DNA of 38,147 nt from a virus, in the IMG/VR virus record IMGVR_UViG_3300031951_000507, positions 1 through 38,147 of that record, one strand, 5' to 3'. Positions within the stretch are counted from its first letter, which is position 1. Every line of letters starts with the position of its first letter. The notes below the pieces were generated by a model. The model was not told the origin of the DNA, searched no databases, and saw nothing but the letters and a program-made list of their open reading frames with translations. Positions 21,648-38,147 of the stretch are shown here, one piece after another. The position numbers and the translations under genes are program-made.

Positions 21648-21658
21648 AAATTTTATTT

Positions 21659-22397: not shown

Positions 22398-22410
22398 CTG
22401 ATTTGATCCA

Positions 22411-23598: not shown

Positions 23599-23599
23599 C

Positions 23600-24169: not shown

Positions 24170-24189
24170 CTTCAACTCCTTAATTTAAA

Positions 24190-24218
24190 CAAAGTTAATT
24201 AATATGCAAGGGACTTAG
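24190..24218 (-). promoter_or_regulatory. Predicted promoter P-MT with shared 12-mer
   Basis: The minus strand has TAACTTTG (24197-24190), fitting TAnnTTTG, with CTAAGTCCCTTG (24218-24207) ending 9 bases upstream. The same 12-mer precedes the box before the tail-fibre block. The 12-mer overlaps the last codons of the VRR-NUC gene. The 5' leader to the methyltransferase would be about 15 nt and includes its ribosome binding site. Confidence 0.5.
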
Positions 24219-24531
24219 TAAAATCTTCAAAACTCTTGATAATCTTGTAATTGCATCCTGATCGCTCGACCGTTGACTGCCACCAAACCTGAGAGGCGCT
24301 TTGCCTACCTTTCTCGGCTTTGAACTCTAGAAAGGTTACTCCAGAGCCGTCGGGGTGTATGTATGTCATGTCGGCCACGCCTGCCACCAAACCCATCACC
24401 TTAAGACTCGCGCCGTGCCTCGCATCGCGAGGGTTGTTGTGATTCATGTAAAGCAAGCCACGCTCGTCAGGGCGGTTATTCCAATGCCAAGTAAAGCAGA
24501 GGGCTTGGAGTTGGTGTTCAGTCATTCTCAT
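24199..24531 (-). CDS. VRR-NUC domain nuclease (110 aa)
   Basis: Single-domain VRR-NUC of the PD-(D/E)XK superfamily. Motifs: D54 (GLVAGVADM), E69-F-K71 (VTFLEFKAEKG) and Q81 (SASQVWWQ). Stand-alone phage members are thought to cut Holliday junctions or flaps. Its ATG lies within the end of the small upstream frame. The last codons contain the promoter 12-mer. Confidence 0.9.
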   Translation of the reverse strand: MRMTEHQLQALCFTWHWNNRPDERGLLYMNHNNPRDARHGASLKVMGLVAGVADMTYIHPDGSGVTFLEFKAEKGRQSASQVWWQSTVERSGCNYKIIKSFEDFTKSLAY

Positions 24532-24685
24532 ATAGCAAGTAATGGATTAAGGCATCACACTTCTTTTCCCAGTGTCTCATACCGACAAGCCACATCATGA
24601 ATAACACGCGAGCCGTATCGTAGCTTACGCCGTGCTCCATGACTATGTCATCGAGAAAGTCTTGAGATAAGCGGCGGTAGTTCAA
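24518..24685 (-). CDS. Small hypothetical protein between helicase and VRR-NUC (55 aa)
   Basis: Likely start is TTG 24685, overlapping the helicase stop as TTGA, with AAGG 9 nt upstream; an ATG at 24640 would give 40 aa. The protein (LSQDFLDDIVMEHGV, ARVLFMMWLVGMRHWEKK) is helical and ends 14 nt into the VRR-NUC gene. The tight overlaps on both sides argue it is real. Function unknown. Confidence 0.6.
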   Translation of the reverse strand: MNYRRLSQDFLDDIVMEHGVSYDTARVLFMMWLVGMRHWEKKCDALIHYLLYEND

Positions 24686-26100
24686 ATCAAGTGCCTTGTC
24701 TTATCCTTGTGAATAAATAACCAACCTTTTGCATATCCCATCGCATCGCGATAGGATTCGGCTTCGCTTCGCAACTTACACAAACTTTGTAGAACATAGA
24801 GCGGATTTAATTTACCCGCCTTTGTCAAGGCTACCCAATCATGCAAGCCTCCGAGCTTTGCCATCGCACGAGCCTCGTGAGGTTGCAATATAGCAAGTTC
24901 TTCAATTACTTCGCGCTCTGTTTTCGGGATCTCCGCTCCGCAGTACTCACACTCGCGAGCCGAGGCGTATAGGAACGCATCACACTCAGGACAATTCTTG
25001 TACACGGCTACGCCATCCCGTGGCTTTTTAGGTGGCTTTGTCCAATCCCTCTCCTCATCCCACATGCCAAAGCGGTAAAGGTTATTCCCGAAGTCCAAGA
25101 CCTTGAATTCGGTCTTGCCCTCGCATGTTCGCGAACCGCGTCCGACCATTTGCAGGAATAAGGGTAAAGACTTGGTAGCTCGATACAAAATAACAGTCTC
25201 AATACTCGGCTCATCAAAGCCCGTGGTAAAAAGTCCTACATTCACCAAAATCGCGCCCGCCGTCTCTTTATACCACTTCAAAGCGTTTCGACGCTCCTGA
25301 AGCCCCGCAAGGCCGCTAAGCGCCAAAGCGGGCAAACCTTCCGACTTGAATTCTTGCAGTACTTCATCCGCGCTGGCTAAGTTAGGTGCGAAGACTATCG
25401 TTTTGCTGCCTTCAGCCCAACGATTGTAATTTGTCACGACGCCCTTGTAAATTTGCGAACGCGAATAAATATCAGCAAGCGAGTCAGCATCATAGTCACC
25501 GCCTTTGGTCTTCACTTGGCTAAGGTCGATCGGAACCGAATAATACGACGGCTTGGCTAGGTAGCCATCATTAATAAGGCTCGGAATAGTCGAAGCTTCC
25601 ACCATAGCCGAGTAAACATCTCTCATACCGGTCCCCTTCCCTTCTCTCCAAGGAGTTGCCGTCGCTCCCAGAATGAAAGCGGACTCAGGTAGGGAAGGGA
25701 GGAGCTTGTCGAATGTTCGCTTATGGCACTCATCAAATATGAATAAATCCACGCTCTCAAGTAGCATCTTGTACTCTCGTAGCTCTCTCCGGCGATAGAT
25801 AGTCTCGATCATGGCTACGAAGATCTTTTGACTCGCATTGATTCGCGAGGTCTCTGCGGTGATCAGTTCTGGAACTATGGCGAGGTTATTGAGCGCCCCG
25901 CCCGCCTGCCATAGCAGCTCGCCTCGGTCGGTAATGATCATGACGCGCTTACCCTTTTGCATAGCTACTTGAGCGATAGCCGAGAACATCACCGTTTTGC
26001 CCGCTCCGGTCGGAGCGCATAATATCACTCGCTTATGACCTTGAGCAAAAGCGGCTCGAAGTTTGTCAATTGCAAGGACTTGATATGGTCGTAAATTCAT
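24682..26100 (-). CDS. DEAD/DEAH-type superfamily 2 helicase (472 aa)
   Basis: Motif I is A29-PTGAGKT36; motif II is the DECH variant (DLFIFDECHKRTFD); motif III GATATPW; motif VI QMVGRGSRTCEGK. After the helicase core there is a four-cysteine zinc-binding segment (CPECDAFLYASARECEYCG). Its likely job is opening DNA during replication or recombination. The start follows the iteron region directly and lacks a clear ribosome binding site, so its expression may be affected by proteins bound at the iterons. Confidence 0.92.
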   Translation of the reverse strand: MNLRPYQVLAIDKLRAAFAQGHKRVILCAPTGAGKTVMFSAIAQVAMQKGKRVMIITDRGELLWQAGGALNNLAIVPELITAETSRINASQKIFVAMIETIYRRRELREYKMLLESVDLFIFDECHKRTFDKLLPSLPESAFILGATATPWREGKGTGMRDVYSAMVEASTIPSLINDGYLAKPSYYSVPIDLSQVKTKGGDYDADSLADIYSRSQIYKGVVTNYNRWAEGSKTIVFAPNLASADEVLQEFKSEGLPALALSGLAGLQERRNALKWYKETAGAILVNVGLFTTGFDEPSIETVILYRATKSLPLFLQMVGRGSRTCEGKTEFKVLDFGNNLYRFGMWDEERDWTKPPKKPRDGVAVYKNCPECDAFLYASARECEYCGAEIPKTEREVIEELAILQPHEARAMAKLGGLHDWVALTKAGKLNPLYVLQSLCKLRSEAESYRDAMGYAKGWLFIHKDKTRHLI

Positions 26101-26313
26101 AGGTAGTCGGTAGTCGGTTCGGTAGTCGGTTCTTTTGAGAACTTGCTACCGTGTAAGTTTATTAAAAATCAATTGTTTACAGTGAAGGTAGTAAGATAAT
26201 ATAATATTATATATACTTTATATATATACACATGCACACACACACACACACACACACACATACATGTCTATATATACGGAGGGCGTTTTTTTAAGAGATC
26301 TTACTACCTACCT
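26101..26313. other. Candidate replication origin: iterons, nested inverted repeats, (CA)13
   Basis: A 213-bp gene-free stretch between the primase-helicase and helicase genes. GGTAGT occurs at 26102, 26109, 26121 and 26187, and inverted at 26303. GGTAGTAAGAT (26187-26197) pairs with its exact inverse at 26298-26308. Inside lies an AT-rich run and 14-bp arms with one mismatch (26221-26234 and 26263-26276), which flank thirteen CA units (26235-26260). Iterons plus AT-rich DNA next to the primase gene are typical of an origin; a transcription control region is an alternative. Confidence 0.55.
26235..26260 (+). repeat. (CA)13 dinucleotide tract
   Basis: Thirteen uninterrupted CA units in non-coding DNA. 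Such a tract is rare in a compact phage genome. It forms the loop between two 14-bp inverted arms. It could adopt altered helix forms, and its length may vary between isolates. Confidence 0.95.
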
Positions 26314-28548
26314 TCAGTCCGAATTTTGCGAATAATCGCCATAAGTGTCAAAACGCTTGCGAACCTTGACGCGATAGACTGTTCTTGGTATGTCGTTGAG
26401 CTTCTTTTTCTTCTTTTCAAAGCCTGCTTTGCCGAGTGCGATCCCGAGTCGGTTTTCCGCAAATTTGACCTCGAGATGCTTCATAATTGTATCTCGTACC
26501 TCTGTTGCGGTCATCCAAGTGCCCTCGAAAGCGGTTGGTTTTTCAAATACCACATCGAGCGCCTCGGCGGCGGTATCTACTTGCTCATTGTCAGCGCTTG
26601 ACATCGATAGTTGAGCTATTTCGCCTTTGTTGAGTTGCCAAGAGGCATCGCCTTCGGTTTTCCAGATGTGATAGGCTTCCATGAGCAAGTCGATCTTGTC
26701 TATTGCCCTGTAAGCCTCGAAGTTAATTGCTACCAGGTTAATCGGAATAATACGGCGGTTGCCGGTCGGGTCGTTAATCACTTCATTCTCATTTGAAGTA
26801 CCACAAAGCACGGCGTATCGCCTATAATCTTCAAATTTGCGCCCGTAGGGCTGCCTAAGGTTAAAAAACTGAGTCGAAGCGTATTGCTTCAGTAGTTTGT
26901 ACTCGTTTTTAGACTTGCCGCTGAACTCGTCATCGCATAGAATTAGTTTTCTGCACATTAGGATTTCATCATCTTTGCCTCGGTCAAGTTTGGACTCGCC
27001 GTAATAGTCCCGAAGTTCTGAAGGGAGTAGCCATCTAAAAAAGTTGGTTTTGCCTAGCCCTTGCTCACCGCACATCACTAGGATAAGAAGCGAGTAAGTG
27101 CCGTGCATGGAAGCTATGAGGCTAATTATCCACTTGCGTATAAAGATTTGAGTTATCATAGGCCCGAAGTCTATTACCTCACCGTTCTCGTTTACGATAT
27201 GGCGTGCTGTTACCGTCGCGATGAGTCGGTCAATAGTTCCGTTCTTGACCTCGCGGTCTTGATAGCGCTCAAAGAAGTCAAGGAATGGATTGTAAGTGCG
27301 GGTGTTATCATTGTGGATAAGTGAATCTACATGCGACTGGGTGCATTTCGTACCAAGCGCTGTTGCAATTTCGGACCAGATCGTATTCAGGTTGCTAGTA
27401 GTCATTGGCCTACCTTTGTACTCAATCTCTTGAGTTACTTCATTCTTTTTAATGTCGTAGGCTTCGAGCGCTGCTTTGATGAGTGGGATAACGTTTTCAT
27501 CGCGTTTTATCTTTGCATCATCAAGATTATGTTCGCTTAGTTGCTTAGACACCTCTCTTGCAAGTTCGCTTGATATACCTTCTTGTTCTGCTAGTTTTAC
27601 AAGTCTATTTTCAGTTGAAGTAGTTTTATCTTTATTAGTCTTTTCAAGTACGATATGAGTACTTTGTAAGTATTGTGTTTCTTTCGTTTGGAACTGAATG
27701 CCATACTCTTTGCACTTAAAGAATAGCGTCGCGATACCTACGCTACCGTCGTTTGTTTTCAAGAAGTTATCATACTTTGCATCGGTATTTTGCGCGTTGT
27801 ATTCCGGATGAATCTCACTTATAGCGTGAAAGTAATCGCGGCCCGCTTCGCCGTAGTGATCAGCTAAAGCAAAACCGATTTGTATCCAATCGTGATAGGA
27901 TTCGGTAAGATCGATGCGACGGCTACGGATCTGGCTAATAATAAACTCCATATCCTTTGAGGTATGCGCATGGATTACTCTTGTACTGATTTGCGCCTCT
28001 TTTTTGAGGTACTTCTTGAATACGGGTACTTCTTTTGTGTTTTTATGTAGGAACGGATCGAATGAGACAAAGCGAAGGCGCGTCACATCTTTACATGCTT
28101 TGTCGGCTACGAGGTGATAGGTATCCGCTAGGTATTTCTCTATGGCTAGGTATGCGTCTAAGTGCTTTGTCGGCTCTATCCTGAAGTAGATTGCATATCC
28201 AAGCCCTCCGAGGGACTGATGGAAGGCAAAGACAAAAGGATCACCGACAAGCGCTCGTACTTTCTCGTTTAGCCCTTCATTATCTTTGTCATCGACATCG
28301 ATGCAAATTAACCCGCTATGATTCTTGAGGCCTGCTTGACCTCGCCCGGTGAACTCACCGCTCGGAGTCACTGCAATGATCTTGCGCTTAGCCGTTTTGC
28401 GCTCTTCGGGGTCTTGAATAGCTCTGTAGGTTATTACATCATCTTGCCAGTGGCCGTTCTTGATAAGGTATAGATACTCGGTAAAGTCTATAAGCTCTTG
28501 CGGGCGCGTGGCCTCTGCATTTGCGAATAGTGTGATAACATTACTCAT
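26314..28548 (-). CDS. Primase-helicase: BT4734-like primase, PriCT-2 and VirE/VapE SF3-type helicase (744 aa)
   Basis: Residues 1-185 are the BT4734-like primase-type domain with D84-V-D86-D87 (GLICIDVDDKDN). Residues about 205-290 match PriCT-2 (YHDWIQIGFALADHYGEAGRDYF). Residues 420-690 are a VirE/VapE ATPase: Walker A G494-EQGLGKT-501, Walker B LILCDDE 535-541 and GTSNENEVINDPTGNRRIIP. Together these make the replicative primase-helicase of the phage, of a type common in Bacteroidota. AGAGAG precedes the ATG. The likely origin lies right after its stop. Confidence 0.95.
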   Translation of the reverse strand: MSNVITLFANAEATRPQELIDFTEYLYLIKNGHWQDDVITYRAIQDPEERKTAKRKIIAVTPSGEFTGRGQAGLKNHSGLICIDVDDKDNEGLNEKVRALVGDPFVFAFHQSLGGLGYAIYFRIEPTKHLDAYLAIEKYLADTYHLVADKACKDVTRLRFVSFDPFLHKNTKEVPVFKKYLKKEAQISTRVIHAHTSKDMEFIISQIRSRRIDLTESYHDWIQIGFALADHYGEAGRDYFHAISEIHPEYNAQNTDAKYDNFLKTNDGSVGIATLFFKCKEYGIQFQTKETQYLQSTHIVLEKTNKDKTTSTENRLVKLAEQEGISSELAREVSKQLSEHNLDDAKIKRDENVIPLIKAALEAYDIKKNEVTQEIEYKGRPMTTSNLNTIWSEIATALGTKCTQSHVDSLIHNDNTRTYNPFLDFFERYQDREVKNGTIDRLIATVTARHIVNENGEVIDFGPMITQIFIRKWIISLIASMHGTYSLLILVMCGEQGLGKTNFFRWLLPSELRDYYGESKLDRGKDDEILMCRKLILCDDEFSGKSKNEYKLLKQYASTQFFNLRQPYGRKFEDYRRYAVLCGTSNENEVINDPTGNRRIIPINLVAINFEAYRAIDKIDLLMEAYHIWKTEGDASWQLNKGEIAQLSMSSADNEQVDTAAEALDVVFEKPTAFEGTWMTATEVRDTIMKHLEVKFAENRLGIALGKAGFEKKKKKLNDIPRTVYRVKVRKRFDTYGDYSQNSD

Positions 28549-28984
28549 GCTTACTCTCTTTGATTAGGGTTCTGTAAAGCGTCCGAAAGTCAGGGTCTAT
28601 GATAGCTCGGTCTTCGACTGCGCGGGCGGCAATAATAGGCAATTTATGGCCACAATTAAAGATAAATCCGCAGTCTTGTTTTGTGAATCCGTTATGCATA
28701 TAGCAAAGAGTAATCGCGACATAGCGAGGGAATCCTTGCTCTTGGAATATAGCGAGCGCTTGGATGCCAAAGGCGCGTGCTGTTAGTTCAGCGACGCGCT
28801 CGGCGATGTGATAGAGTTGTGCATTTGTGAGGTGCTTAATCTTACCGCGTGGCTTCTTTGGCCTATTGCCGAAGAGTATCTCTCTTTCTATCTTCAGTTG
28901 CTGCGAAAGAGGGAGCGTAGCAAGCGGCGTGCGATTTGTGTCAGCCGCGAGGTCATTAATATGACCGATAGCATGAATACGCAT
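28541..28984 (-). CDS. DnaA-domain-IV-like HTH protein, paralogue 1 (147 aa)
   Basis: Shares an N-terminal signature with two other genes in this region: LSQQLKIEREILFGNRP here. The C-terminal part (QEQGFPRYVAITLCYMHNGFTKQDCGFIFNCGHKLPIIAARAV, then DPDFRTLYRTL) resembles the helix-turn-helix layout of DnaA domain IV, where conserved helices read double-stranded DnaA boxes. Only this DNA-binding part is present; there is no ATPase. It could bind the origin iterons. It overlaps the primase start by 8 nt. The conserved N-terminus confirms the start. Confidence 0.75.
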   Translation of the reverse strand: MRIHAIGHINDLAADTNRTPLATLPLSQQLKIEREILFGNRPKKPRGKIKHLTNAQLYHIAERVAELTARAFGIQALAIFQEQGFPRYVAITLCYMHNGFTKQDCGFIFNCGHKLPIIAARAVEDRAIIDPDFRTLYRTLIKESKHE

Positions 28985-29052
28985 ATTTTTTGCCCGGTAT
29001 TGTGGAAAGATTCTGCAAGCTCGTCAAGGCTTTGGCGGTCGAAGTTATTCAT
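28894..29052 (-). CDS. Possible small overlapping ORF (52 aa)
   Basis: Starts 11 nt after the preceding gene with AAGG near the ATG, and begins MNNFDRQSLDELAESFHNTG. It then overlaps the first 91 nt of the next gene in another frame, where its sequence looks less protein-like. It could be a short coupling ORF filling the 79-nt gap, or chance. Confidence 0.3.
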   Translation of the reverse strand: MNNFDRQSLDELAESFHNTGQKICVFMLSVILMTSRLTQIARRLLRSLFRSN

Positions 29053-29063
29053 AATATACCTTG

Positions 29064-29375
29064 TCAAAATTTGAGTTTTATACGATCAGCAGCTTCTCTC
29101 ATAGCTTTCCATAATTTTGGATCGATGCTGTATTCATTATCTTCAGCCTTCGGTAGTTCGATTGCATCGAGTGCTATGTAGTGCGGTTCGATGTCGTAGA
29201 TTGAGTCGATGCTTATTTTGCTTGGCATTGGTCTCGTGCAGTAAAAATATACATCTTGATTTGTTTTACTTCGCTTTATGTATCCTACTTCATACTGCGG
29301 GCCGTCTTCGAGATCGATTCGCAAAAGTATCATACCTTCAGGCCATTCGCCGTATTCGAGTTTAGTCCATTTCAT
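29064..29375 (-). CDS. Hypothetical protein (103 aa)
   Basis: Starts MKWTKLEYGEWPEG with GGAGAG 7 nt upstream. The sequence alternates strands (MILLRIDLEDGPQYEVGYIKR, VYFYCTRPMPSKI) and ends in a helix (PKLWKAMREAADRIK). The N-terminal W-x(2)-L-x(3)-E-x-P and the strand pattern recall DUF551-type phage proteins, but this is weak. Between two HTH paralogues. Confidence 0.75.
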   Translation of the reverse strand: MKWTKLEYGEWPEGMILLRIDLEDGPQYEVGYIKRSKTNQDVYFYCTRPMPSKISIDSIYDIEPHYIALDAIELPKAEDNEYSIDPKLWKAMREAADRIKLKF

Positions 29376-29376
29376 T

Positions 29377-29955
29377 TTATTTCTCTCCTTTTAGTTGGTA
29401 GTTAGCGCTCTTGTATTTTTTGAATCCTACTCTATCAGCATGTTCGTATAAAAACTTATCAAGAGATATGAATATATTTTGATACTTACCATATACATCG
29501 ACAATATCCATTATATGATGAACATGATATGATAGAGTTGAGCGATCCATTTTTAGATAAGCGGCCACTTCAAAGCTCGTTAGGTTTAGATAACATATTG
29601 CAAAGAATATGAATACTTTTTTTGCATATACGACCTCTTGATACCGTACTTTCATTTTTAGTGATGGATACGGAAGCTCAATCAGTCGTATTACTTCTTT
29701 CTCAAGTAATGGTAATATGTCAAGCGGTCTATCAAAGTCAAGCCATGTCGAGCGATCCATGAAGTAGCCCGACCGTTTTGTCGTATCGGGCTGCACCATG
29801 TCTATTCTTGTTCTGCTATCTTTATACGGCTCCATCTCTTTTGCAATCTTTAAGCGCTCTTCGCGAAGTTGCTCGGAGAGTGATCGACCAGGCTCGAAGG
29901 CCGTGCGACCGAGAGTGTAATTAACTTCTTGTAGTATATCGTTTTCTTCATTCAT
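29377..29955 (-). CDS. DnaA-domain-IV-like HTH protein, paralogue 2 (192 aa)
   Basis: Has the family N-motif SLSEQLREERLKI (residues 24-36) and a C-terminal helical domain that is the clearest DnaA-like one: KVFIFFAICYLNLTSFEVAAYLKMDRSTLSYHVHHIMDI, where MDRSTLSYHV aligns with the D-H-S-T-V recognition segment of DnaA domain IV. The central part (residues 60-95) is specific to this copy. Coupled to the DNA methyltransferase by ATGA. A replication or transcription regulator is likely. Confidence 0.75.
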   Translation of the reverse strand: MNEENDILQEVNYTLGRTAFEPGRSLSEQLREERLKIAKEMEPYKDSRTRIDMVQPDTTKRSGYFMDRSTWLDFDRPLDILPLLEKEVIRLIELPYPSLKMKVRYQEVVYAKKVFIFFAICYLNLTSFEVAAYLKMDRSTLSYHVHHIMDIVDVYGKYQNIFISLDKFLYEHADRVGFKKYKSANYQLKGEK

Positions 29956-30935
29956 GAAAATATCTCCTCTTGTACTTTGTCTTTAAATCTTTTGCTAGCT
30001 TCTTTTAGATTAATAATCGCTTGCTTGAAGTAACTATCTTTTAATTCTATTCCGATAGCTTTGCGACCGAGTGAAACAGGACTATACACTTCAGATCCGA
30101 CTCCCATGAATGGAGTAAGTACGACCTCTTTTGGATTAGAATATAGTTCTACTATTCTATCGATTACATCAAGTTGTAAGGGGTGTACATGTTTCTCGTC
30201 ATCTTCCTCTTTGGAATCACGGAACGGTAAAACATTATCTATTCTAATATCATCCCAAACCGAGCTAGCATATCTTTGCCATGTGAGGTGAGAAAGTTTA
30301 TTTCCTGAAGGGTCGCCGTCGTAATCTTTCCACTTTTTTACAAAATCTTTGTAGTTACCGTATGTTTCTTTATGAGCTTCTAAAAATGGAGTTTCTCCAA
30401 AGTATTCAGTAAGTCCGCATGGATGAGTAACTGGTACTTGATTATCGCCTGCTTTTGTAAATATCAATACATAATCAGGCATTGCAGTAAAACACTTTGT
30501 AGAGTCTTCGACAATAAATTTATGCATTAAAGATTGCACCATTGTACGCATGCGAACTTTTAGAGGCTCTTTCCATACGGTTATGCGATTGCGATAATAA
30601 AAACCATGTTTTTCATGAATTCTAATTATCTCATGTGGAAAGTCCCATAGATAACATCTGTTATCAAAAACATCAGTACAATGAACTGCAGTAATACGAC
30701 CGGGCTTTGTTACTCTTGAAATTTCTTGTACTAGGAATTCGTACTGTTCTAAGAACTGCTCGCGACTTTCACAATTACTAAAATCATTCTCATGAGATGA
30801 GTAATTGTAAAGACCTGCGAACGGTGGAGAATAGACTGAAAGGTCTATGCTATCATTTGCCAAAGTTGGAAGTACATACATGCAGTCACTATTATAGATT
30901 GCATAATTATCGGTTATTACTTGCTCTTTAATCAT
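29952..30935 (-). CDS. DNA methyltransferase, beta-class N4/N6 type (327 aa)
   Basis: Catalytic motif IV S36-PPF39 (LSVYSPPFAGLYNYSS) comes near the N-terminus and the SAM-binding FxGxG (TPFMGVGSEVYSP, about 274-286) near the C-terminus, followed by GRKAIGIELKDSYFKQA. This order defines the beta class of amino-methyltransferases; SPPF fits N4-cytosine or N6-adenine. No restriction endonuclease is seen nearby, so it is an orphan, probably protecting phage DNA or regulating expression. ATGA overlap with the helicase upstream. Confidence 0.93.
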   Translation of the reverse strand: MIKEQVITDNYAIYNSDCMYVLPTLANDSIDLSVYSPPFAGLYNYSSHENDFSNCESREQFLEQYEFLVQEISRVTKPGRITAVHCTDVFDNRCYLWDFPHEIIRIHEKHGFYYRNRITVWKEPLKVRMRTMVQSLMHKFIVEDSTKCFTAMPDYVLIFTKAGDNQVPVTHPCGLTEYFGETPFLEAHKETYGNYKDFVKKWKDYDGDPSGNKLSHLTWQRYASSVWDDIRIDNVLPFRDSKEEDDEKHVHPLQLDVIDRIVELYSNPKEVVLTPFMGVGSEVYSPVSLGRKAIGIELKDSYFKQAIINLKEASKRFKDKVQEEIFS

Positions 30936-32314
30936 AAGAAACTCGGTAGGGTAATTGGTTTATTAAATTCTTTGCTTTCTATTTTGAAGTCTTGAGATGT
31001 TTGCTTTGTTAGATTATCGAACATTTGAATAGCGCGGTCTTTTTTTATCATAAGACTTTCCATAACTTTTGTTTGTCCATCTGATAAAATAAGATCTACA
31101 GTAACCGGTCTTTTTTGTCCAAATCTCCAAAAGCGTCGTATAGCTTGATAGTATTGCTCATATGAATAAGTAGGAAAGTATGTCGTATGATTGCAGTGCT
31201 GCCAGTTAAGACCAAAAGCGGTAATAGATGTTTTTGTGATTAGTTTCTTGATATCACCAGCGCTGAATCCTAAAAGTATTTCCTCTTTCTTATCTATGTT
31301 CATATTGCCTTTGACTTCGACTGTACTCTTGTCGAGTTCTCCGATTAGATCGGCTTCATCGTTAAGATTAACCCAGTAAACAGAGCACTCATGATCTTTT
31401 GCTTTCTCGACTGCTTTATGGCATCGCATTTCTAAAGTAGCTCTTACTTCGGCTTTTATCTCTTTGAATCCTGTAGCCGGAATAGCGAACATGGTATTTT
31501 GACCATCGATAGCAAGCGGATCAGTATTTTCTATAATTGTGATATTCTCGATAAGTTCGGGCAAAATATGACGCTCATCACTGAATCCAAAGTCTGAAGG
31601 CTTGCGCATTGATATTGACCATGATGCTATCCATCTCCAAAAGTCCTGCTCTGCATGAGCTTTGAGATACCACTCTTCGCCCTGCCTTGCTTTGCTTATT
31701 TGCGATAACTTGGCTACATTGTTTTGATTGTTTTTGAAAAACTTAGAAAGCATATCCATATAGCCAAGATACCCAAGAGCTTCGGAACTCGTGCCTAATT
31801 CTATGTAATCGTTAGGGCTTGGAGTCGCGGTGAATAGGAATCGATATTTGACTTTTTTCAAGAATGCAGTGATAGCATTTTTAGTAGCTCCTTCAAAGTT
31901 TTTTAAGATAGAGCTTTCATCTAGGATAACACACTCGAAGTCCTTTGAGTTGAAGTTTTCCAAGCGCTCGTAATTGCAAACTACTATCTTAGTTTTGTAG
32001 TTACCATCTTTGCTATATTCGATGTCATCGATACCAAACTTTTCAGCCTCTTTAATAAATTGAAAAGCGACTGCAAGCGGTGTAATAATCAATACCGGCT
32101 TATTGGTCTTTCTTGCATAATTCACGGCTATTGTAAGCTCTAGAATAGTCTTTCCTAATCCTGTATCTAAGAATACCGCGCATCTCCCTTTCTTTATTGC
32201 ATATTCGGCTACATGCTTTTGGTAGTCGAACATATCTTCAGGTAAAAACGAGGTATCTATGCCATAATCTATCGAGCTATGTTTTTTGCTCTCAAGAAAC
32301 TCCTTATATGTCAT
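30932..32314 (-). CDS. SNF2-type superfamily 2 helicase/translocase (460 aa)
   Basis: Motif I LDTGLGKT (49-56), motif II DESS (CVILDESSILKNF) in place of DEAH, motif III TATPSPND, and motif VI QAIRRFWRFGQKRPV, all as in small phage SNF2-like proteins. The DE-S-S variant is seen in family members that pair with DNA methyltransferases. It overlaps both its neighbours by 4 nt. It may move along DNA and help the methyltransferase or remove bound proteins. Confidence 0.92.
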   Translation of the reverse strand: MTYKEFLESKKHSSIDYGIDTSFLPEDMFDYQKHVAEYAIKKGRCAVFLDTGLGKTILELTIAVNYARKTNKPVLIITPLAVAFQFIKEAEKFGIDDIEYSKDGNYKTKIVVCNYERLENFNSKDFECVILDESSILKNFEGATKNAITAFLKKVKYRFLFTATPSPNDYIELGTSSEALGYLGYMDMLSKFFKNNQNNVAKLSQISKARQGEEWYLKAHAEQDFWRWIASWSISMRKPSDFGFSDERHILPELIENITIIENTDPLAIDGQNTMFAIPATGFKEIKAEVRATLEMRCHKAVEKAKDHECSVYWVNLNDEADLIGELDKSTVEVKGNMNIDKKEEILLGFSAGDIKKLITKTSITAFGLNWQHCNHTTYFPTYSYEQYYQAIRRFWRFGQKRPVTVDLILSDGQTKVMESLMIKKDRAIQMFDNLTKQTSQDFKIESKEFNKPITLPSFL

Positions 32315-32859
32315 CTCATTATATCCTTCAAATAATTAAATAGCTCTCTCATAGTCTCATCAAGTGCGACGCTTCTTCGCAAGCCTTTGGCTGCATTACT
32401 TATTAGCTCTTGCGCATCGGCTCTATCGAGTTCAAGTTCTTCGGCTAGTGATACGGTGCGTATCAGCATAGCAAAGCGCAAAGTTAATGCAAGACACTTT
32501 AAGTAGTGCATACCTTGATTGTATTTGCTTTCGAACATCTCTCGAATTGTCATACCGGTTTTATCTTTTACATACTTGATAAGCGCGTCAATTGCTTTGC
32601 TATGGTTAAAGTCTTTATGATGAAAGTATGTAAAGTCAATACCGGATCTTTGCATTAGTGTCAAATCTTTACGCAGTTGCCTTCCTTGATCCTTGGTATG
32701 CTTTCCGATATTGACATCGTTAACACTTCGACCGAATAATCTACGGCGCTCTCTTCGAAGCTCTTCGCTTAATTTAATGCGGGGCCTCCATGCGAGGCCA
32801 CCGTTTGGGTCAAGATCGGCTACATGGTTGTAGAGTGAGCCGATGGATCGGGTCTTCAT
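32311..32859 (-). CDS. DnaA-domain-IV-like HTH protein, paralogue 3 (182 aa)
   Basis: The N-terminus MKTRSIGSLYNHVADLDP aligns with paralogue 1, followed by LSEELRRERRRLFGR, the shared motif. The C-terminal helices (YLKCLALTLRFAMLIRTVSLAEELELDRADAQELISNAAK) sit where paralogues 1 and 2 have their HTH. The middle has a RQLRKDLTLMQRSGIDF segment. ATGA coupling to the helicase. Divergence is high, so shared origin is inferred from the motif order. Confidence 0.7.
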   Translation of the reverse strand: MKTRSIGSLYNHVADLDPNGGLAWRPRIKLSEELRRERRRLFGRSVNDVNIGKHTKDQGRQLRKDLTLMQRSGIDFTYFHHKDFNHSKAIDALIKYVKDKTGMTIREMFESKYNQGMHYLKCLALTLRFAMLIRTVSLAEELELDRADAQELISNAAKGLRRSVALDETMRELFNYLKDIMR

Positions 32860-32870
32860 GCTGGCACTCC

Positions 32871-33608
32871 TTAAAATCGTAGGTTAACTTTATCGCGACG
32901 CTTGTAATTATAGATTTCTTCGATGAGTAAGATATATTGATTTATATCTGTGCAATCTTGCAGAGCTAATGGCTGTATTTTAAGCTTTTGCAAAAACTCT
33001 GTAAATTCAAATTGTGGTTTTTGTAGTAATTGCATCATAGCATATATGAAATATCTTCTTCTTATACCTGCATAATATGACTCAATCATACAAAGCTTAT
33101 CCATGAAGTCTTCAGCTTCAAATAAATGAGTTACCTTGAATAAACCGCGTCTAAACTTTGATACATAACCTCCTTGAAAGGTAGTTCCGGATAAAAGCCC
33201 CATACATTCATTATACCCTATTTTATATTTATCACGGAATTCTCTAAAAACAATGTAATCTTTATATCCTAGCTTGCAATAACCATCAAGGTAATCTGCA
33301 GATACCCAATCTTTAGAATTTTGATTCAGTATATGTACTTCATTAAGACCATATCCTTTACATATAATGTAGTGAAGAGGATATCCTAATTCTTTAATGC
33401 ATTCAAAACGATGCTGACCATCTATTATCTCATATTTCTCATTTACGATAATTACAGTAAATAAATAATTGTCGTCAATTGCATTCCTTAATCGATTTAA
33501 ATGCAAAGTATTAAGGGTTCTATTACCGTCAATAGGTTTAAACAAAGAATAATCAGTAGTAGTATGAACTTGTCTTATATTAGACATTGGTTCTTGATTG
33601 TTTCTCAT
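32871..33608 (-). CDS. DGQHR / ParB-N-like protein (245 aa)
   Basis: Residues 20-110 look like a ParB/sulfiredoxin-type domain: a strand-helix start (HLNRLRNAIDDNYL), TVIIVNEKYEIIDGQHRFEC with I61-IDGQHR-67, and a following LNQNSKDW. The C-terminal part is helical and Tyr/Phe-rich. DGQHR proteins are known near DNA modification genes; some bind or process nucleic acids or nucleotides. The DNA looks AT-richer than its neighbours. GGAG lies 7 nt before ATG 33608. Confidence 0.8.
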   Translation of the reverse strand: MRNNQEPMSNIRQVHTTTDYSLFKPIDGNRTLNTLHLNRLRNAIDDNYLFTVIIVNEKYEIIDGQHRFECIKELGYPLHYIICKGYGLNEVHILNQNSKDWVSADYLDGYCKLGYKDYIVFREFRDKYKIGYNECMGLLSGTTFQGGYVSKFRRGLFKVTHLFEAEDFMDKLCMIESYYAGIRRRYFIYAMMQLLQKPQFEFTEFLQKLKIQPLALQDCTDINQYILLIEEIYNYKRRDKVNLRF

Positions 33609-33619
33609 TTCCTTACTCC

Positions 33620-33649
33620 AAAAAAAATAAATTATGCGGTTGCTACCGC
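33620..33649 (-). terminator. Possible weak terminator after the nuclease gene
   Basis: On the minus strand GCGGT, a 4-nt loop and ACCGC form a short stem (33649-33636) within the last codons, followed by an AT stretch and eight T (33627-33620). The stem is short and not immediately next to the T run, so efficiency would be partial. Confidence 0.35.
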
Positions 33650-34258
33650 GTTTGTTAAACTCAATTGCAATACCGGCTCTTTTTCAAGCCCTCTCACCAT
33701 AATATACTCATGCAAGTAGTGAATCATGTCGAAGACTTTCGCATCATTGTAAACGGGGCGCGCAAAAGTGAACTGCTGATAGTTCTTGAAGTTATCGGCT
33801 TCAGTATTCGCGAACTCGAAGACCTTATAGGTTACGAATTTTGCGCCGAATAGCTCGCAGTACACTCGCCATTGCATCGAGCTTGCATAGTCATCGTATG
33901 ATATTGGAGAATACTTGGTTTTGATTTCCACCACATCGAGTCCTATAAGTTGGTCAGCCATTCCGGTAACTGATATATCACCGAATTGAGTGCGATATAC
34001 GCGGCGAACTTTGTACTCGAATACTTTGGAGCGGTAATCCATATTAGCGCGCGCCTTGGCGATGCAATCGCTTGAAAACATGCCTTCAAATAGCATCGGC
34101 TCTTCGCTTTGCATCATTTCGTGAAAGGCCGTGCCTTTCTCCATCATTGCATTGGGCGGATCGAGCCGTAAGAGCTGGCGCTCAAACTGATCGGGCGATA
34201 GCGTGCCGTCTAAGAGACGGCGATAGCTCTCGAGCTGGGTTGCGGATATTTTAAGCAT
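33632..34258 (-). CDS. PD-(D/E)XK exonuclease (PDDEXK_1 / Cas4-RecB-like, 208 aa)
   Basis: Motifs in order: GTAFHEMM with H46, VTGMADQLIG with D102, VVEIKTK with E111 and K113, and Q129-WRVY133. This is the catalytic arrangement of RecB/AddB-type nucleases. The cysteine cluster of true Cas4 is not seen. It likely makes 3' single strands for the Sak4-like protein and so acts in recombination. TAATG coupling to the upstream gene. Confidence 0.9.
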   Translation of the reverse strand: MLKISATQLESYRRLLDGTLSPDQFERQLLRLDPPNAMMEKGTAFHEMMQSEEPMLFEGMFSSDCIAKARANMDYRSKVFEYKVRRVYRTQFGDISVTGMADQLIGLDVVEIKTKYSPISYDDYASSMQWRVYCELFGAKFVTYKVFEFANTEADNFKNYQQFTFARPVYNDAKVFDMIHYLHEYIMVRGLEKEPVLQLSLTNAVATA

Positions 34259-34485
34259 TAGCGTCTCTCATACTTCAGTGTATAATACGCTTCACTACTG
34301 CATACCTCGCCGAGTCTTCGACCGTCTTCAAAGGCTCGCATAATTTGCGCCTTTTCGTTTAGGATTAAATCCTCAAGCTCGCGATGTAATAGCTCTACGA
34401 TCTTCTCTGCGCTTAGCATTTGCACCTCTCCGCCGTAAGAGATGGGTAAGCGATAAATAAGCTCTCCTAATACCGTGCGTGTCAT
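34258..34485 (-). CDS. Small hypothetical protein (75 aa)
   Basis: Starts MTRTVLGELIYRLPISY and has a long amphipathic helix (AEKIVELLHRELEDLILNEK). Coupled by ATGA on the upstream side and TAATG downstream, so certainly part of the operon. Perhaps a regulator or subunit for the nuclease that follows; no family recognised. Confidence 0.75.
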   Translation of the reverse strand: MTRTVLGELIYRLPISYGGEVQMLSAEKIVELLHRELEDLILNEKAQIMRAFEDGRRLGEVCSSEAYYTLKYERR

Positions 34486-34658
34486 GTCGGATCCTCCACA
34501 TCATAAATAATAATCTTAGCAACTTTGCGACCGCTTGCGCCGTATTCGTACCAATGAAGAGCTATATCCCATGAGTAGGTATAATCAACTATATCTTCAT
34601 CTTGATTCATTAGCGCATAGCCTTCGTAGTAATCCTTTGGCAATTGCACCCAACTCAT
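34482..34658 (-). CDS. Small hypothetical protein (58 aa)
   Basis: Chosen start ATG 34658 (MSWVQLPKDYYEGYAL) has GGAGG 4 nt upstream and forms ATGA with the tiny membrane ORF before it. An in-frame ATG at 34703 would lie inside that ORF and adds an unlikely basic Cys-rich leader. The protein is acidic and Trp/Tyr-rich. No known family. Confidence 0.75.
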   Translation of the reverse strand: MSWVQLPKDYYEGYALMNQDEDIVDYTYSWDIALHWYEYGASGRKVAKIIIYDVEDPT

Positions 34659-34756
34659 AAGACCTCCGCGAGTAGCCACCCGGCAAGCAGAACGCCTGCA
34701 CATACGGCGAGTGATAGGATAGCGAATTCGAGTAGTGAAGCAAATAAGCGTCTCAT
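34655..34756 (-). CDS. Tiny single-pass membrane protein (33 aa)
   Basis: MRRLFASLLEFAILSLAVC followed by AGVLLAGWLLAEVL: a basic start and a single long hydrophobic helix. AAGGTG lies before the ATG. Both ends are ATGA overlaps with neighbouring genes, a pattern very unlikely by chance. Below usual gene-length cut-offs. Function unknown; could be a host membrane-acting peptide. Confidence 0.75.
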   Translation of the reverse strand: MRRLFASLLEFAILSLAVCAGVLLAGWLLAEVL

Positions 34757-35097
34757 TTTACACCTTGTTTTTTTTGTAATAGGAAGTTCTCGTATTTACG
34801 CTTGATCTGCGCTTTGTACTGCTTTTCTGGGAGTAGATACCATTTAAGGTTTTTCTCGGTAAACTGCTTATGTCTTGTAGTTCTAAAGCGTTTGTTGTTT
34901 AGATCATTAACAATAACATTCAGGTTCTTTTGACCTTTATAGGTAGCTTGAATATACTTGCGACCATCGGCCATGCTATTAAAGTATCTAATAGTACCTA
35001 CTTGATAGTAATACTTTTTAGGATGCTTTGCCCGTTTAGTTTTAGTGATAATAGGCTGTTCGCTTTTGCGAAATAGTTTTGTTAGAAAATTAAACAT
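34753..35097 (-). CDS. Basic hypothetical protein (114 aa)
   Basis: Start at ATG 35097 (MFNFLTKLFRKSEQP) is favoured: GAGG lies 9 nt upstream and the overlap with the upstream gene is only 8 nt. A start at 35130 lacks a binding site. The protein is strongly basic with many K and R and a strand-rich middle (YYYQVGTIRYFNSMADGRKY, NLNVIVNDLNNKRFR), suggesting nucleic-acid binding. No family recognised. Confidence 0.75.
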   Translation of the reverse strand: MFNFLTKLFRKSEQPIITKTKRAKHPKKYYYQVGTIRYFNSMADGRKYIQATYKGQKNLNVIVNDLNNKRFRTTRHKQFTEKNLKWYLLPEKQYKAQIKRKYENFLLQKKQGVK

Positions 35098-35986
35098 TCT
35101 TTTTATCCTCAAATTGTTTAGTCTCTGCATTCCAAGTCAAGCCACGCGCTCCAAAGGTTTGCACTACACCAGCCCAAACGGTACGCTTTACTGAATCTCC
35201 GAGCCCTGCCTTGCCAAGATCAGCGACAAACTTATTAGCATCTTTTGCGGTTTCGGCTTTCTTAATCCACTCACCTACTAGTGCAATGGCCTCTTCTTGC
35301 TCTTTGGATCGCTTTGCGATCGCGGTCTTAGTGTGATTGATAATCTCGGTTAATTGAGTAGTCATCTCATGAAGAGTGCCTACATATACGGGCTGAATCT
35401 CAGCGCAGTTTTTCGCGGTTACGGTATCGGACAAGTCAAACGTCAATACTCGCTTATTTGCGATTGTAGTGTAATATCCGACAAGATCACATGCTTGCAT
35501 TAAGAGGTCGTAGCTTGAGCCCGGTATGAGAGGGCGCTTAATTCGTACATCGCCTTCCTCTTTCTCTTTGGCATGTGCAATGAAGATCACATTCTTACCG
35601 CTTAATTTGAGAGGCAAAAAGAACTCTTGGAATAAGCGCTTAGTCTCTCCCCATAATTTGATACCATTGCGAAGTAGTGCGGGGTTTGACTTTACTAAGT
35701 AGGCTTGCATGGCTTCAATAACCGTACCGGCAGTATCGATAATTATGCTATCGTGTTGAGCGATTAGCTTATCAAGGTCAAGCTTGCTATCAATCACATC
35801 TTGCCATGAGTCAAACTGCAAAGCGTTCTTACGATGCGAAGCGCGGTGCACTCCACGGTCGAAGTCAAGTAGTAAAGGATTCGGCGCGGTGAATGCGAGG
35901 GTAGTTTTCCCGATTCCCGGATCGCCGTAAAACAAGACATTGAGTCCTAGAACATTCATGTCATCTGTCTGTTGAATTAATCTCAT
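35090..35986 (-). CDS. Sak4-like RecA-fold ATPase (AAA_24), recombinase (298 aa)
   Basis: Walker A GDPGIGKTT lies near residue 22, Walker B SIIIDTAG near 81, followed by a sensor-like VIFIAHAKEK near 135 and RPLIPGSSYDLLMQACDLVGYY. This is the AAA_24 family, which includes phage Sak4 single-strand annealing proteins that work with SSB. The C-terminal helical tail is lysine-rich. Start ATG 35986 is favoured because AGGAG lies 6 nt upstream; the ATG at 35992 touches it. Confidence 0.9.
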   Translation of the reverse strand: MRLIQQTDDMNVLGLNVLFYGDPGIGKTTLAFTAPNPLLLDFDRGVHRASHRKNALQFDSWQDVIDSKLDLDKLIAQHDSIIIDTAGTVIEAMQAYLVKSNPALLRNGIKLWGETKRLFQEFFLPLKLSGKNVIFIAHAKEKEEGDVRIKRPLIPGSSYDLLMQACDLVGYYTTIANKRVLTFDLSDTVTAKNCAEIQPVYVGTLHEMTTQLTEIINHTKTAIAKRSKEQEEAIALVGEWIKKAETAKDANKFVADLGKAGLGDSVKRTVWAGVVQTFGARGLTWNAETKQFEDKKNV

Positions 35987-36194
35987 CTCCATCTCCTAAG
36001 AGCTTTTTAAGCTCGCTATAATTTAGTAAATACATAGACTTTTGCCCGTATGCTATTTCTTTGATCTTGCGAAGTACGGGCGGCTTCGCGTTTCTTTCAT
36101 CTGTTTCAGGTCTTCCGCGTGCTAGGTAGTGAAGGTATCGCATTGAGAGTCCGAATATCTCCGAGGCCTCTCGGATTGTTAGCCATTCTCTCAT
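35961..36194 (-). CDS. HTH_17 / AlpA-like DNA-binding protein (77 aa)
   Basis: REWLTIREASEIFGLSMRYLHYLARG is a MerR/excisionase-type helix-turn-helix, followed by a wing-like segment (KPPVLRKIKEIAYGQKSMYLLNYSELKKLL). Proteins like this act as excisionase or small regulators. Since no integrase was found here, regulation of early genes is more likely. GAGGT precedes the ATG; ATGA coupling upstream. Confidence 0.85.
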   Translation of the reverse strand: MREWLTIREASEIFGLSMRYLHYLARGRPETDERNAKPPVLRKIKEIAYGQKSMYLLNYSELKKLLGDGDEINSTDR

Positions 36195-36292
36195 CTAATA
36201 ACCTCGCCGAGAGTCCACTTTTCAAATTGAGTGATAAGCCATAATGCAAAGATCATGAATACCACGCCGTGCCATAGTTTGCCCTTCTTCAT
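36191..36292 (-). CDS. Tiny single-pass membrane protein (33 aa)
   Basis: MKKGKLWHGVVFMIFALWLI then TQFEKWTLGEVIR: a basic start and one membrane helix. GGAGG lies 6 nt before the ATG. ATGA overlaps with both neighbours. Too short for many gene finders. Function unknown. Confidence 0.75.
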   Translation of the reverse strand: MKKGKLWHGVVFMIFALWLITQFEKWTLGEVIR

Positions 36293-36450
36293 ATCTTGCC
36301 TCCGATATAGGTTAGTAAAGTTCCGACTGCTATGCCGAAATTGACATAGGTAATGATAATCCATTTGCCTCGATATTCAACTACTTGAGTTCCGAGCGGC
36401 GCTTCATTTTGCGCCGCTTGCTTGGTTGGGTAAAGTTTGTAAAGTTTCAT
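36289..36450 (-). CDS. Small membrane protein (53 aa)
   Basis: Starts MKLYKLYPTKQAAQNEAPLG, followed by a strand and a membrane helix (IIITYVNFGIAVGTLLTYIG). AAGGAGG lies close to the ATG, and the stop overlaps the next ATG as ATGA. It fills a stretch that would otherwise look gene-free. Function unknown. Confidence 0.75.
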   Translation of the reverse strand: MKLYKLYPTKQAAQNEAPLGTQVVEYRGKWIIITYVNFGIAVGTLLTYIGGKI

Positions 36451-36466
36451 GCTTTCCCTCCTTTTG

Positions 36467-36670
36467 TTATTGTTTGATTCTTTTTATAGCTGTGTAAAGA
36501 GATTTGTCTAAAGATCCATCAGGGTTAACTGTTTTGAATTGTGGTAATATTAACAATCTAACGGCCTGCATGCATGGATACCATTCAGTTGAATTTGTCC
36601 ATTCGCACCATAACTTTACTTCATGCTTTGAGCTTGGTGCAAATTGGTGGTTATTCTCTTTCTTACTCAT
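36467..36670 (-). CDS. Small hypothetical early protein (67 aa)
   Basis: Begins MSKKENNHQFAPSSKHEVKL. GGAG lies 6 nt before the ATG in a 27-bp stretch also found before the upstream gene. The body is Trp-rich (WCEWTNSTEWYPC) and ends in a basic helix. Early position suggests a host-takeover or regulatory protein. No family recognised. Confidence 0.7.
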   Translation of the reverse strand: MSKKENNHQFAPSSKHEVKLWCEWTNSTEWYPCMQAVRLLILPQFKTVNPDGSLDKSLYTAIKRIKQ

Positions 36671-36682
36671 GCCGTTCTCCGT
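36656..36682 (-). repeat. Duplicated translation start region, copy 2
   Basis: The ribosome binding site, ATG and first five codons of the 67-aa gene nearly repeat those of the 99-aa gene (36969-36996), with one extra base in the other copy. The two proteins share only MSKKE, so the repeat is at DNA or RNA level. Confidence 0.75.
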
Positions 36683-36683
36683 G

Positions 36684-36983
36684 TTAATAAAGTTCTCTAA
36701 AATTTCCGTCCCATTCTCCGATATTCACTACTTTGCCATTTTCGTACTGCTCACCAATCTTTTTGTCATTTTCATCGTAGATTCCTATCGGTCTCATCTC
36801 TTGTCCATATTTCTCCATATTCCAAATCCAATCACAAAGCGTATCCCATGTCAACCAAAGCTCGTCTCTTAATTGTATATCTGTTTCGACATCCGCTTTT
36901 TCTTTAATCACATTTTGAATGTCTTTGAGTTCTTGGATTCTGTTTTGAACTCTTTGTCTTTCTTTTTGCTCTTTCTTACTCAT
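36684..36983 (-). CDS. Early protein, coiled coil then MORN-like end (99 aa)
   Basis: First gene after the early promoter. N-terminal charged helix (QKERQRVQNRIQELKDIQNVIKEKAD), then a Trp-rich helix and a strand end (IGEQYENGKVVNIGEWDGNFRELY). GGAG lies 7 nt upstream, and the 5' region is duplicated before the next gene. Function unknown. Confidence 0.75.
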   Translation of the reverse strand: MSKKEQKERQRVQNRIQELKDIQNVIKEKADVETDIQLRDELWLTWDTLCDWIWNMEKYGQEMRPIGIYDENDKKIGEQYENGKVVNIGEWDGNFRELY

Positions 36984-36996
36984 GTCCGTTCTCCGT
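36969..36996 (-). repeat. Duplicated translation start region, copy 1
   Basis: Covers the ribosome binding site and first codons of the 99-aa early gene. Nearly identical to 36656-36682. It may result from a local duplication or be kept for shared control, for example by a small RNA or a repressor of translation. Confidence 0.75.
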
Positions 36997-37024
36997 TTGT
37001 GTTATTGCGTTGTTGATTACGGTT

Positions 37025-37055
37025 CAAACTTACGAACAAAACAAAAGCAATGCAA
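37025..37055 (-). promoter_or_regulatory. Leftward early promoter, Bacteroidota type
   Basis: On the minus strand TTG (37055-37053), 20 bases and TAAGTTTG (37032-37025) match the Bacteroidota sigma-ABfr consensus TTG-N19-21-TAnnTTTG. Transcription should begin near 37019, leaving a leader of about 36 nt with the ribosome binding site of the 99-aa gene. It would drive the early small-gene chain and probably the replication block. Confidence 0.8.
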
Positions 37056-37068
37056 GTATTTTTTTAAT

Positions 37069-37257
37069 TTATCGTGAAATTTTTATTTTTTCGGGTAGGT
37101 GCAAGCTTTGTAAGTGCTTGTATTCTCTAGGAGTTATAGCGAATAAAATAATTTTGCGCACGGCGGTAAGTTCAGCGAGTGAGAGAACTGCAGATAGTGA
37201 GGTGACGGCGCATCCATAGGATTGCCCGCTCTTTTTTATTATTCTAATTTGGTGCAT
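37069..37257 (-). CDS. Possible small ORF upstream of the early promoter (62 aa)
   Basis: The frame begins MHQIRIIKKSGQSYGCAVTS and ends basic. There is no ribosome binding site. A TATCTTTG box (37269-37262) lies just before the ATG, so a leaderless message is conceivable, but its -33 region is poor. Helical stretches are present but no family. It may not be a gene; if not, this stretch is non-coding. Confidence 0.3.
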   Translation of the reverse strand: MHQIRIIKKSGQSYGCAVTSLSAVLSLAELTAVRKIILFAITPREYKHLQSLHLPEKIKISR

Positions 37258-37279
37258 TCAACAAAGATAGGTATTTTTG
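37249..37279 (+). promoter_or_regulatory. Rightward promoter for small RNA, Bacteroidota type
   Basis: On the plus strand TTG (37249-37251), exactly 20 bases and TATTTTTG (37272-37279) match TTG-N20-TAnnTTTG. It points against all genes of the genome, towards a strong terminator about 75 bp away. Expected transcription start near 37284. Confidence 0.7.
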
Positions 37280-37283
37280 GAAT

Positions 37284-37359
37284 GTAACCTTTACTGCGGT
37301 TACAAAATACTTATGGCGTAACATGAGTGTATGGCGATCTGGGGAGATCGCCTTTTTTT
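37284..37359 (+). ncRNA. Predicted small RNA, about 75 nt
   Basis: The only likely rightward transcript. It is bounded by a consensus promoter (37249-37279) and a perfect terminator (37333-37359). The 5' end can form a 7-bp hairpin (TGTAACC with GGTTACA, 8-nt loop, 37283-37304), followed by a 28-nt unpaired middle and the terminator hairpin. No ORF with a ribosome binding site is inside. It could be an antisense-type regulator of phage or host messages. Alternatively the 5' dyad is a repressor operator at the start site. Confidence 0.6.
37333..37359 (+). terminator. Rho-independent terminator, rightward
   Basis: GGCGATCT, GGGG loop, AGATCGCC: a perfect 8-bp stem, followed by seven T. On the minus strand there is no T run after the stem, so it acts only on rightward transcripts. 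Confidence 0.9.
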
Positions 37360-37435
37360 ATTTGGATATCAAGCGCGGGGTAGTTATATTGCATTCAGCG
37401 GTCTACCATAACCGCCTGCCTCCCCCCGAAGCAAG
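37360..37435. other. Gene-free stretch between the two rightward terminators
   Basis: No ORF or promoter consensus was seen. GCGGT and ACCGC (around 37399-37416) can form a 5-bp hairpin with an 8-nt loop, and a run of six C follows. It lies past the end of the late operon and may hold its 3' untranslated region. Confidence 0.5.
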
Positions 37436-37469
37436 ACCCGCTATCTATCTGATAAGCGGGTTCTTTTTT
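37436..37469 (+). terminator. Second rightward terminator
   Basis: ACCCGCT (37436-37442) pairs with AGCGGGT (37455-37461), with further ATC/GAT pairing inside, and TCTTTTTT follows. It covers the last codons of the 68-aa gene on the other strand. It would catch rightward read-through; in the leftward direction the same stem has only a weak T-rich tail. Confidence 0.7.
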
Positions 37470-37651
37470 GCATACTCTTCGCGAAGGCACTTGATAAAGA
37501 ACTGAAGGCTAGCTACTTTGCCCTGCATGAATAAGACTTCATCTGCGAGCCGTACGGCCTCGCCTACGGCCTTTGTGATAGGCATGCGTTTTGTCTTCGC
37601 GAACTTGCGAATACGCTCTTCATCATGCGGGTCTGTGATGCGTATATTCAT
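37445..37651 (-). CDS. Small ribbon-helix-helix-like or helical protein (68 aa)
   Basis: MNIRITDPHDEERIRKFAKT begins with a strand followed by a helix, then KRMPITKAVGEAVRLADEVL, a second helix, as in CopG/Arc-type ribbon-helix-helix proteins. The C-terminal helix is long. TAATG coupling to the upstream tip protein gene makes it the last gene of the late operon. It may be a DNA-binding regulator acting on the neighbouring control region. Confidence 0.65.
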   Translation of the reverse strand: MNIRITDPHDEERIRKFAKTKRMPITKAVGEAVRLADEVLFMQGKVASLQFFIKCLREEYAKKNPLIR

Positions 37652-38139
37652 TAGTCGCGTCTCAGTACGATTTGCCCTTTGATAGCAGCGCCGCTTGCGA
37701 AAGTTTCGCCATCAAGTAAAACGGGAACTATGTAAAGAGTACGGCTAGTGCTTTGGCATACATACTTGATATCGAGTGAAGTCTGAAGAACGCATACTCC
37801 CGATGCTCCATCTACCCAAGTGGTACCGGTATCATAGTAACCGACAAGAGTATCAAATTGAGCGCTCGTAAAAGCTTGCGGCGAATTACGCGCGGCGGGT
37901 GTAATAGCAGAGCCGAATATCCACATTCTTATATTAGGCTTTTGCAAAGCTCCAGGAGAGGTTTCTTTTAGTATGATGCGCTCTATGACTCCAGAGAAGC
38001 CAAGAAAGCGCGCTGAGTCTACTGCAATAGCTCCTGAAGTGAGAACATCTCCACTCGCATACGCTGCCGTATCGAGCGTTCCGAAGTCTATGGTTTGAAG
38101 TGTTCTATCTTCGCCAGTTTTACCGGTATAAAATTCCAT
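37651..38139 (-). CDS. Tail-tip or receptor-binding protein, paralogue B (162 aa)
   Basis: Paralogue of the 175-aa protein ending at 38: shared Y-x-GKTGED start, the R-x-W-x-F-x(3)-IT segment (RMWIFGSAITP) and an L-R-R-D end. The two genes are separated by 2 nt across the circle junction. Composition is beta-rich with A, S and T. AAGAGA lies just before the ATG, found in the left terminal repeat. Probably part of the adsorption tip; the duplicates may form a hetero-oligomer. Confidence 0.8.
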   Translation of the reverse strand: MEFYTGKTGEDRTLQTIDFGTLDTAAYASGDVLTSGAIAVDSARFLGFSGVIERIILKETSPGALQKPNIRMWIFGSAITPAARNSPQAFTSAQFDTLVGYYDTGTTWVDGASGVCVLQTSLDIKYVCQSTSRTLYIVPVLLDGETFASGAAIKGQIVLRRD

Positions 38140-38147
38140 TTTTAATC
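38105..38147. repeat. Terminal direct repeat, right copy (circular overlap)
   Basis: Exact copy of bases 1-43. It contains the first 35 bases of the tip protein gene starting at 38139 and its upstream bases. Joining the two copies places the AAGAGA ribosome binding site of that gene a few bases upstream of its ATG and 2 bp after the stop of the gene ending at 38. Confidence 0.9.

Follow-up and report, generated by a model that had tools for sequence, protein, structure and literature searches.

Two tandem candidate small RNA genes opposing the genes of a phage with a likely Bacteroidota host

The main non-coding gap of the phage genome analyzed here (the window, i.e., the whole stretch of 38,147 nt of IMG/VR record IMGVR_UViG_3300031951_000507) very probably carries two separate small RNA (sRNA) genes, which we term RNA-A and RNA-B. 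Each has a predicted Bacteroidota-type promoter and an intrinsic terminator of its own, and both are directed against all other genes of the phage. The best explanation for the pair, to which we give about an even chance, is that they specify trans-acting regulatory RNAs that would make their contacts through exposed loops. An earlier note on this DNA had proposed a single rightward sRNA gene. The proposal of such a gene is strongly supported, as relatives keep the promoter box, the terminator and stems with compensatory changes, and the proposed unit corresponds to RNA-A; however, the locus holds two such genes, of which the second, RNA-B (37361-37469 with its promoter), had been missed.

Genomic setting and relatives of the locus

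The phage record looks complete, with a 43-base terminal repeat and a length of 38104 bases once closed, and RNA-A and RNA-B are situated in the main gap of what is a circular or circularly permuted genome. The primase encoded in the window is nearest to those of phages of Nonlabens, Cellulophaga, and Flavobacterium; hence, a Bacteroidota host is likely, if not proven. All recognized genes run leftward, in keeping with the earlier description of a one-strand phage, and the early leftward promoter and the end of the late operon (37445) were recovered on the two sides of the locus, where that description had put them (Table 1).

Table 1. Predicted features of the locus in window coordinates.
Feature	Position	Strand	Details
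Leftward early promoter	37025..37055	-	TTG-N20-TAAGTTTG; sequence match
62-aa leftward gene	37069..37257	-	flanked by RNA-A and the early promoter; related reading frame in clades I-III
RNA-A promoter	37249..37279	+	TTG-N20-TATTTTTG; exact match to the Bacteroidota sigma-A consensus
RNA-A	37284..37359	+	hairpins 37283-37304 and 37307-37330; terminator stem-loop 37333-37352 plus T7
RNA-B promoter	37361..37392	+	TTTG-N20-TATATTGC; -7 box conserved; matches motif SM5
RNA-B	37397..~37469	+	hairpin 1 37398-37415; C-run 37422-37427; terminator 37435-37462 plus T-run
68-aa gene	37445..37651	-	end of the leftward late operon; last 25 nt opposite RNA-B

Relatives were gathered by searches with the neighboring 162-aa protein and with the RNA-B core, and were labeled as clades from the alignment and the identity of the neighboring protein rather than from a phylogeny; all carriers are metagenomic contigs. 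Clade I comprises the window, L023, L006, L004, and L005; clade II comprises L002 and many others; clade III comprises L086-L088, whose neighboring protein is ~53% identical to that of the window; and L110 and L129 are single lines. RNA-B is present in all of these, a rightward RNA-A-like unit precedes it wherever the carrier contig reaches far enough (that of L027 starts inside RNA-A), and both terminators are retained in all carriers. A covariance model of the RNA-B core matched 13 of 13 carrier records, once each (E 9e-14 to 6e-9), and in all eight carrier genomes checked RNA-B and the genes are on opposite strands.

The earlier note did not mention a conserved leftward gene of 62 aa, the first codons of which lie over the -33 region of the RNA-A promoter. 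This gene was not found in L110 and L129, and its product has no Pfam match. The stretch 37141-37240, considered as a candidate third RNA, was rejected, being part of this gene. On the other side of the locus, the place of the 68-aa gene of the window is taken in L110, L129, and clade III by unrelated small proteins. The 68-aa protein itself shows a weak match, below the cut-off, to PF07704 (Rv0623-like transcription factor family; 19.9 bits). Elsewhere in the window (29377-29955, minus strand), another protein has a weak, likewise below-cut-off match to the DnaA C-terminal domain.

RNA-A: a predicted RNA of diverging sequence with a persistent promoter and terminator

Both signals that had been reported for this unit, a full promoter and a perfect terminator 53 nt farther on, were confirmed, this distance separating the end of the -7 box from the terminator stem. 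The terminator has the form GGCGATCT-GGGG-AGATCGCC-T7 (37333-37359) with an 8-bp stem, and heads a list of 22 terminator-like sites in 18500-38147. The combination of a strict promoter with a strong terminator 40-110 nt downstream is found once in the window and in none of 60 simulated (Markov) genomes with the dinucleotide content of the window. In F. psychrophilum the -7 box occupies positions -12 to -5 and takes the forms TAnnTTTG (sigma A) and TAnnTTGY (SM5), the latter being among the motifs ascribed to alternative sigma factors in that organism (PMC9723704). RNA-A in the window has the former version and RNA-B the latter. Given this geometry, the first base of RNA-A is predicted to be G37284, which would yield a 76-nt RNA, close to the earlier estimate of about 75 nt. 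The region 37281-37360 folds into three hairpins, the first of which is the previously noticed 5' hairpin, with an energy of -32.2 kcal/mol (z -6.2; 0 of 200 shuffles equally stable). RNA-A overlaps no recognized ORF and, as had been claimed for it, no ORF contained within it was found; the same holds for ORFs contained in RNA-B.

Across the clades RNA-A is too diverged in sequence for alignment; what persists is its position, promoter box, 5' structure, and terminator. Despite the divergence of the RNA, clades I-III, L110, and L129 all retain a -7 box, in the form of TAnnTTTG or TAnnTTGC variants (TATATTCG in part of clade II). Within clade I, a test on four sequences, with loops left out, found 6 of 15 pairs changed on both sides.

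RNA-B: a conserved hairpin, a C-run and covarying stems

RNA-B, which directly follows RNA-A and is also rightward, is the better conserved of the two by sequence comparison. Its -7 box (TATATTGC, 37385-37392) belongs to a pattern, TAnnTT(T/G)(G/C), that stands 3-5 nt upstream of hairpin 1 in 26 of 26 RNA-B sequences examined. The -33 TTTG is absent from relatives with a short deletion between the two RNAs; in F. johnsoniae no -33 motif was identified (PMC7366714). Hairpin 1 starts one base past the predicted first nucleotide, A37397, and reads GCGGT-CTACCATA-ACCGC in the window, against a consensus of GCGGY-CYAYMAUA-RCCGC. It is followed in the window by a C-rich stretch, CCUCCCCCC, inside a weak hairpin; in the folded representatives this run of five to eight C residues is exposed, being either unpaired or in the loop of the weak hairpin. 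The T-run of the terminator ends at 37469, by which point the predicted RNA has covered the last 25 nt of the 68-aa gene on the opposite strand. Folding energies are low in all clades (z -2.4 to -6.0).

Covariance analysis across related phages, the check that had been proposed along with the original claim, uncovered compensatory changes in the stems. For RNA-B we used a composite alignment of 12 distinct sequences comprising hairpin 1 and seven terminator pairs, with the terminator loops left out. In this alignment, the terminator half of which leans towards structure because its arms were put in register by hand via the CCC/GGG core, 99.3% of the cells pair, both sides have changed in 7 of the 12 tested pairs, and the covariation score of 0.597, which 0 of 500 shuffles reached, compares with a shuffled mean of 0.264 and a maximum of 0.121 in slid controls. 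Hairpin 1 has no gaps and is free of the bias from the hand-set register, and 3 of its 5 pairs have changed on both sides, with the stem variants GCGGC/GCCGC, GCGGU/ACCGC, GCUUC/GAAGC, and GCGUC/GAUGC. Every wobble cell is G-U when read on the plus strand (13 G-U, 0 A-C), indicating that the plus strand is the RNA. While the stems covary, the loop CYAYMAUA and the C-run stay constant, which suggests loops that contact something.

Possible modes of action

Host RNA polymerase very probably transcribes RNA-A and RNA-B, each from its own promoter. We propose that hairpin 1 of RNA-B, which sits at the predicted start of the RNA, would shield the 5' end. The conserved loop CYAYMAUA and the C-rich loop would then serve as contact surfaces that might base-pair with G-rich mRNA stretches resembling ribosome-binding sites, in host mRNAs more likely than in phage mRNAs, and thereby block translation. 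The targets of RNA-A in that cell would be different ones that change faster. In the window and nine related genomes, with genes defined by simple longest-ORF calls (as also in the target search below), 41-63% of the long phage genes have an SD-like site ahead of them, as opposed to 8-12% in controls; thus, these phages would at least allow RNA-B to pair with such sites. It is uncertain that the C-run is aimed at ribosome-binding sites, because GGGG is rare in the 25 nt upstream of phage start codons and Bacteroidota mRNAs are reported to be without classical SD sequences (PMC7366714). A search for phage targets of RNA-B, which bears on the earlier suggestion of a regulator of the early/late switch or a host-acting RNA, found no gene family in eight carrier genomes that beats shuffled RNA. 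The best of 42 families (p 3e-4) was rejected as a conserved phage mRNA target, for it came first with shuffled RNA too and its signal is therefore compositional. Accordingly, RNA-B is at least as likely to have a target in the host or to act with a protein partner.

A more elaborate arrangement, which we regard as a long shot, is a two-RNA device, wherein RNA-B would hit a host machine by means of its invariant C-rich loop and 5' hairpin loop, and the fast-changing RNA-A with its G-run would tune the device or adapt it to the host. That machine might be the ribosome, a termination factor, or an RNA of a defense system. Direct partnership of the two RNAs, i.e., RNA-A acting as a sponge whose G-run pairs with the C-run of RNA-B, is likewise doubtful. 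A G-run in RNA-A and a C-run in RNA-B occur in every carrier examined, and perfect matches of 6-7 bp can be drawn (GGGGAG/CUCCCC in the window, CUUGGGG/CCCCAAG in L086, and GGGGAAG/CUUCCCC in L110), making kissing between the two compelling in single genomes; however, it failed a swap test, in that cognate RNA-A:RNA-B pairs were no better than non-cognate ones across the matrix. The complementarity may hence just reflect the presence of a G-run and a C-run.

Among the readings that require no trans-acting RNA, cis-antisense control of the lambda OOP type is unlikely. Here RNA-B would bind the leftward late transcript at its 3' end and RNA-A would bind the leader of the 62-aa gene, cutting or silencing transcripts that run on from the late into the early region. 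Consistent with this, any leftward read-through RNA would be perfectly complementary to RNA-A and RNA-B, RNA-B overlaps the end of the 68-aa gene, and the window shows no leftward T-run terminator at this place, whereas clade IV (L089-L100), which is without the RNAs, has one (by eye). Yet control of the 62-aa gene is unlikely as the shared function, since the carriers L110 and L129 are without that gene. Furthermore, the gene opposite the end of RNA-B is swapped for unrelated small genes between clades, and perfect antisense pairing requires neither the constant loop nor the C-run. We think it quite unlikely that the RNAs are by-products of transcriptional insulation alone, with the two rightward terminators shielding the late operon from stray rightward transcription: both terminators do face that operon and are kept in all carriers, but the conserved -7 boxes, the covarying hairpin 1 with its conserved loop, and the C-run would be left unexplained. 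Finally, location in the main non-coding gap of the genome would also suit a replication origin or packaging site with hairpins acting as DNA. This is very improbable, as G-U wobble and T-runs are confined to one strand, the promoter boxes are conserved, and there are no iterons and no clear skew break.

Comparison with known small RNAs

The OOP RNA of lambda and the sar RNA of P22 end at a terminator, as do RNA-A and RNA-B. They are also phage RNAs of the same size (77 nt and 68/69 nt, respectively) transcribed against a neighboring operon (PMC12197685). OOP is antisense to cII and sar to ant, whereas RNA-A overlaps no recognized ORF, RNA-B covers merely the last 25 nt of one, and neither RNA overlaps a protein gene that is kept in the relatives; the host group differs as well. 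The C-rich-loop sRNAs of Gram-positive bacteria, such as RsaE, expose a loop through which pairing with G-rich ribosome-binding sites would be possible. RNA-B resembles them in its exposed C-rich loop, a likeness to RNAs of a different phylum that was judged by description and Rfam only. With GibS of B. thetaiotaomicron and Rfp18 of F. psychrophilum both RNAs share, by description and not by sequence, a TAnnTTTG-type promoter, strong structure, an intrinsic terminator, and the lack of an ORF (PMC7366714, PMC9723704). Unlike these two, RNA-A and RNA-B are phage-encoded and in tandem, and they are shorter than GibS (~145 nt).

An Rfam 15 search of the window gave no match at the gathering score, its only weak match being to queA (22.2 bits against a cut-off of 52.6), and eight related loci gave none at E up to 0.1. 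Having by sequence the features of intergenic sRNA genes, namely their own promoter, an intrinsic terminator, conserved structure, and no ORF, RNA-A and RNA-B would be sRNA genes in kind and, within what could be searched, appear to be new as a family. Most characterized phage sRNAs come from a few well-studied phages, and a 2025 review of phage sRNAs does not mention Bacteroidota (PMC12197685). Compact, supported by covariation, and fixed in place in a group of uncultured phages, the family comes with a working covariance model and can be sought in cultured relatives and in metatranscriptome data. RNA regulation in this phylum is poorly known, and a mechanism of host takeover there would be indicated if the family acts on the host.

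Related loci outside the RNA-B carriers

Beyond the carriers, the best hit of the RNA-B covariance model in nine other records (clades IV and V and L085) had an E of 0.06. Among cultured phages, a nucleotide search gave no hits, and RNA-B is absent from P12024L and phi46:1, the cultured relatives by primase. Pattern matches to hairpin 1 in bacterial genomes are about as numerous as expected by chance. Matches in the unrelated viral contigs L152, L153, L155, and L156, which are without the C-run and terminator, and in L054, which is without the C-run, were rejected and serve as negative controls. Where the late operon ends, clade IV and L085, which are without RNA-B, show by eye a terminator-like hairpin in the leftward direction, which the carriers seem to lack. 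In clade V (L120-L127), one or two diverged rightward RNAs are predicted at the same place, mostly with a TATATTTG or TATATTGC box and with a strong terminator. In most of these clade V loci a short rightward ORF (36 aa in L120) stands ahead of the RNAs, and thus not all genes are one-directional in this phage group.
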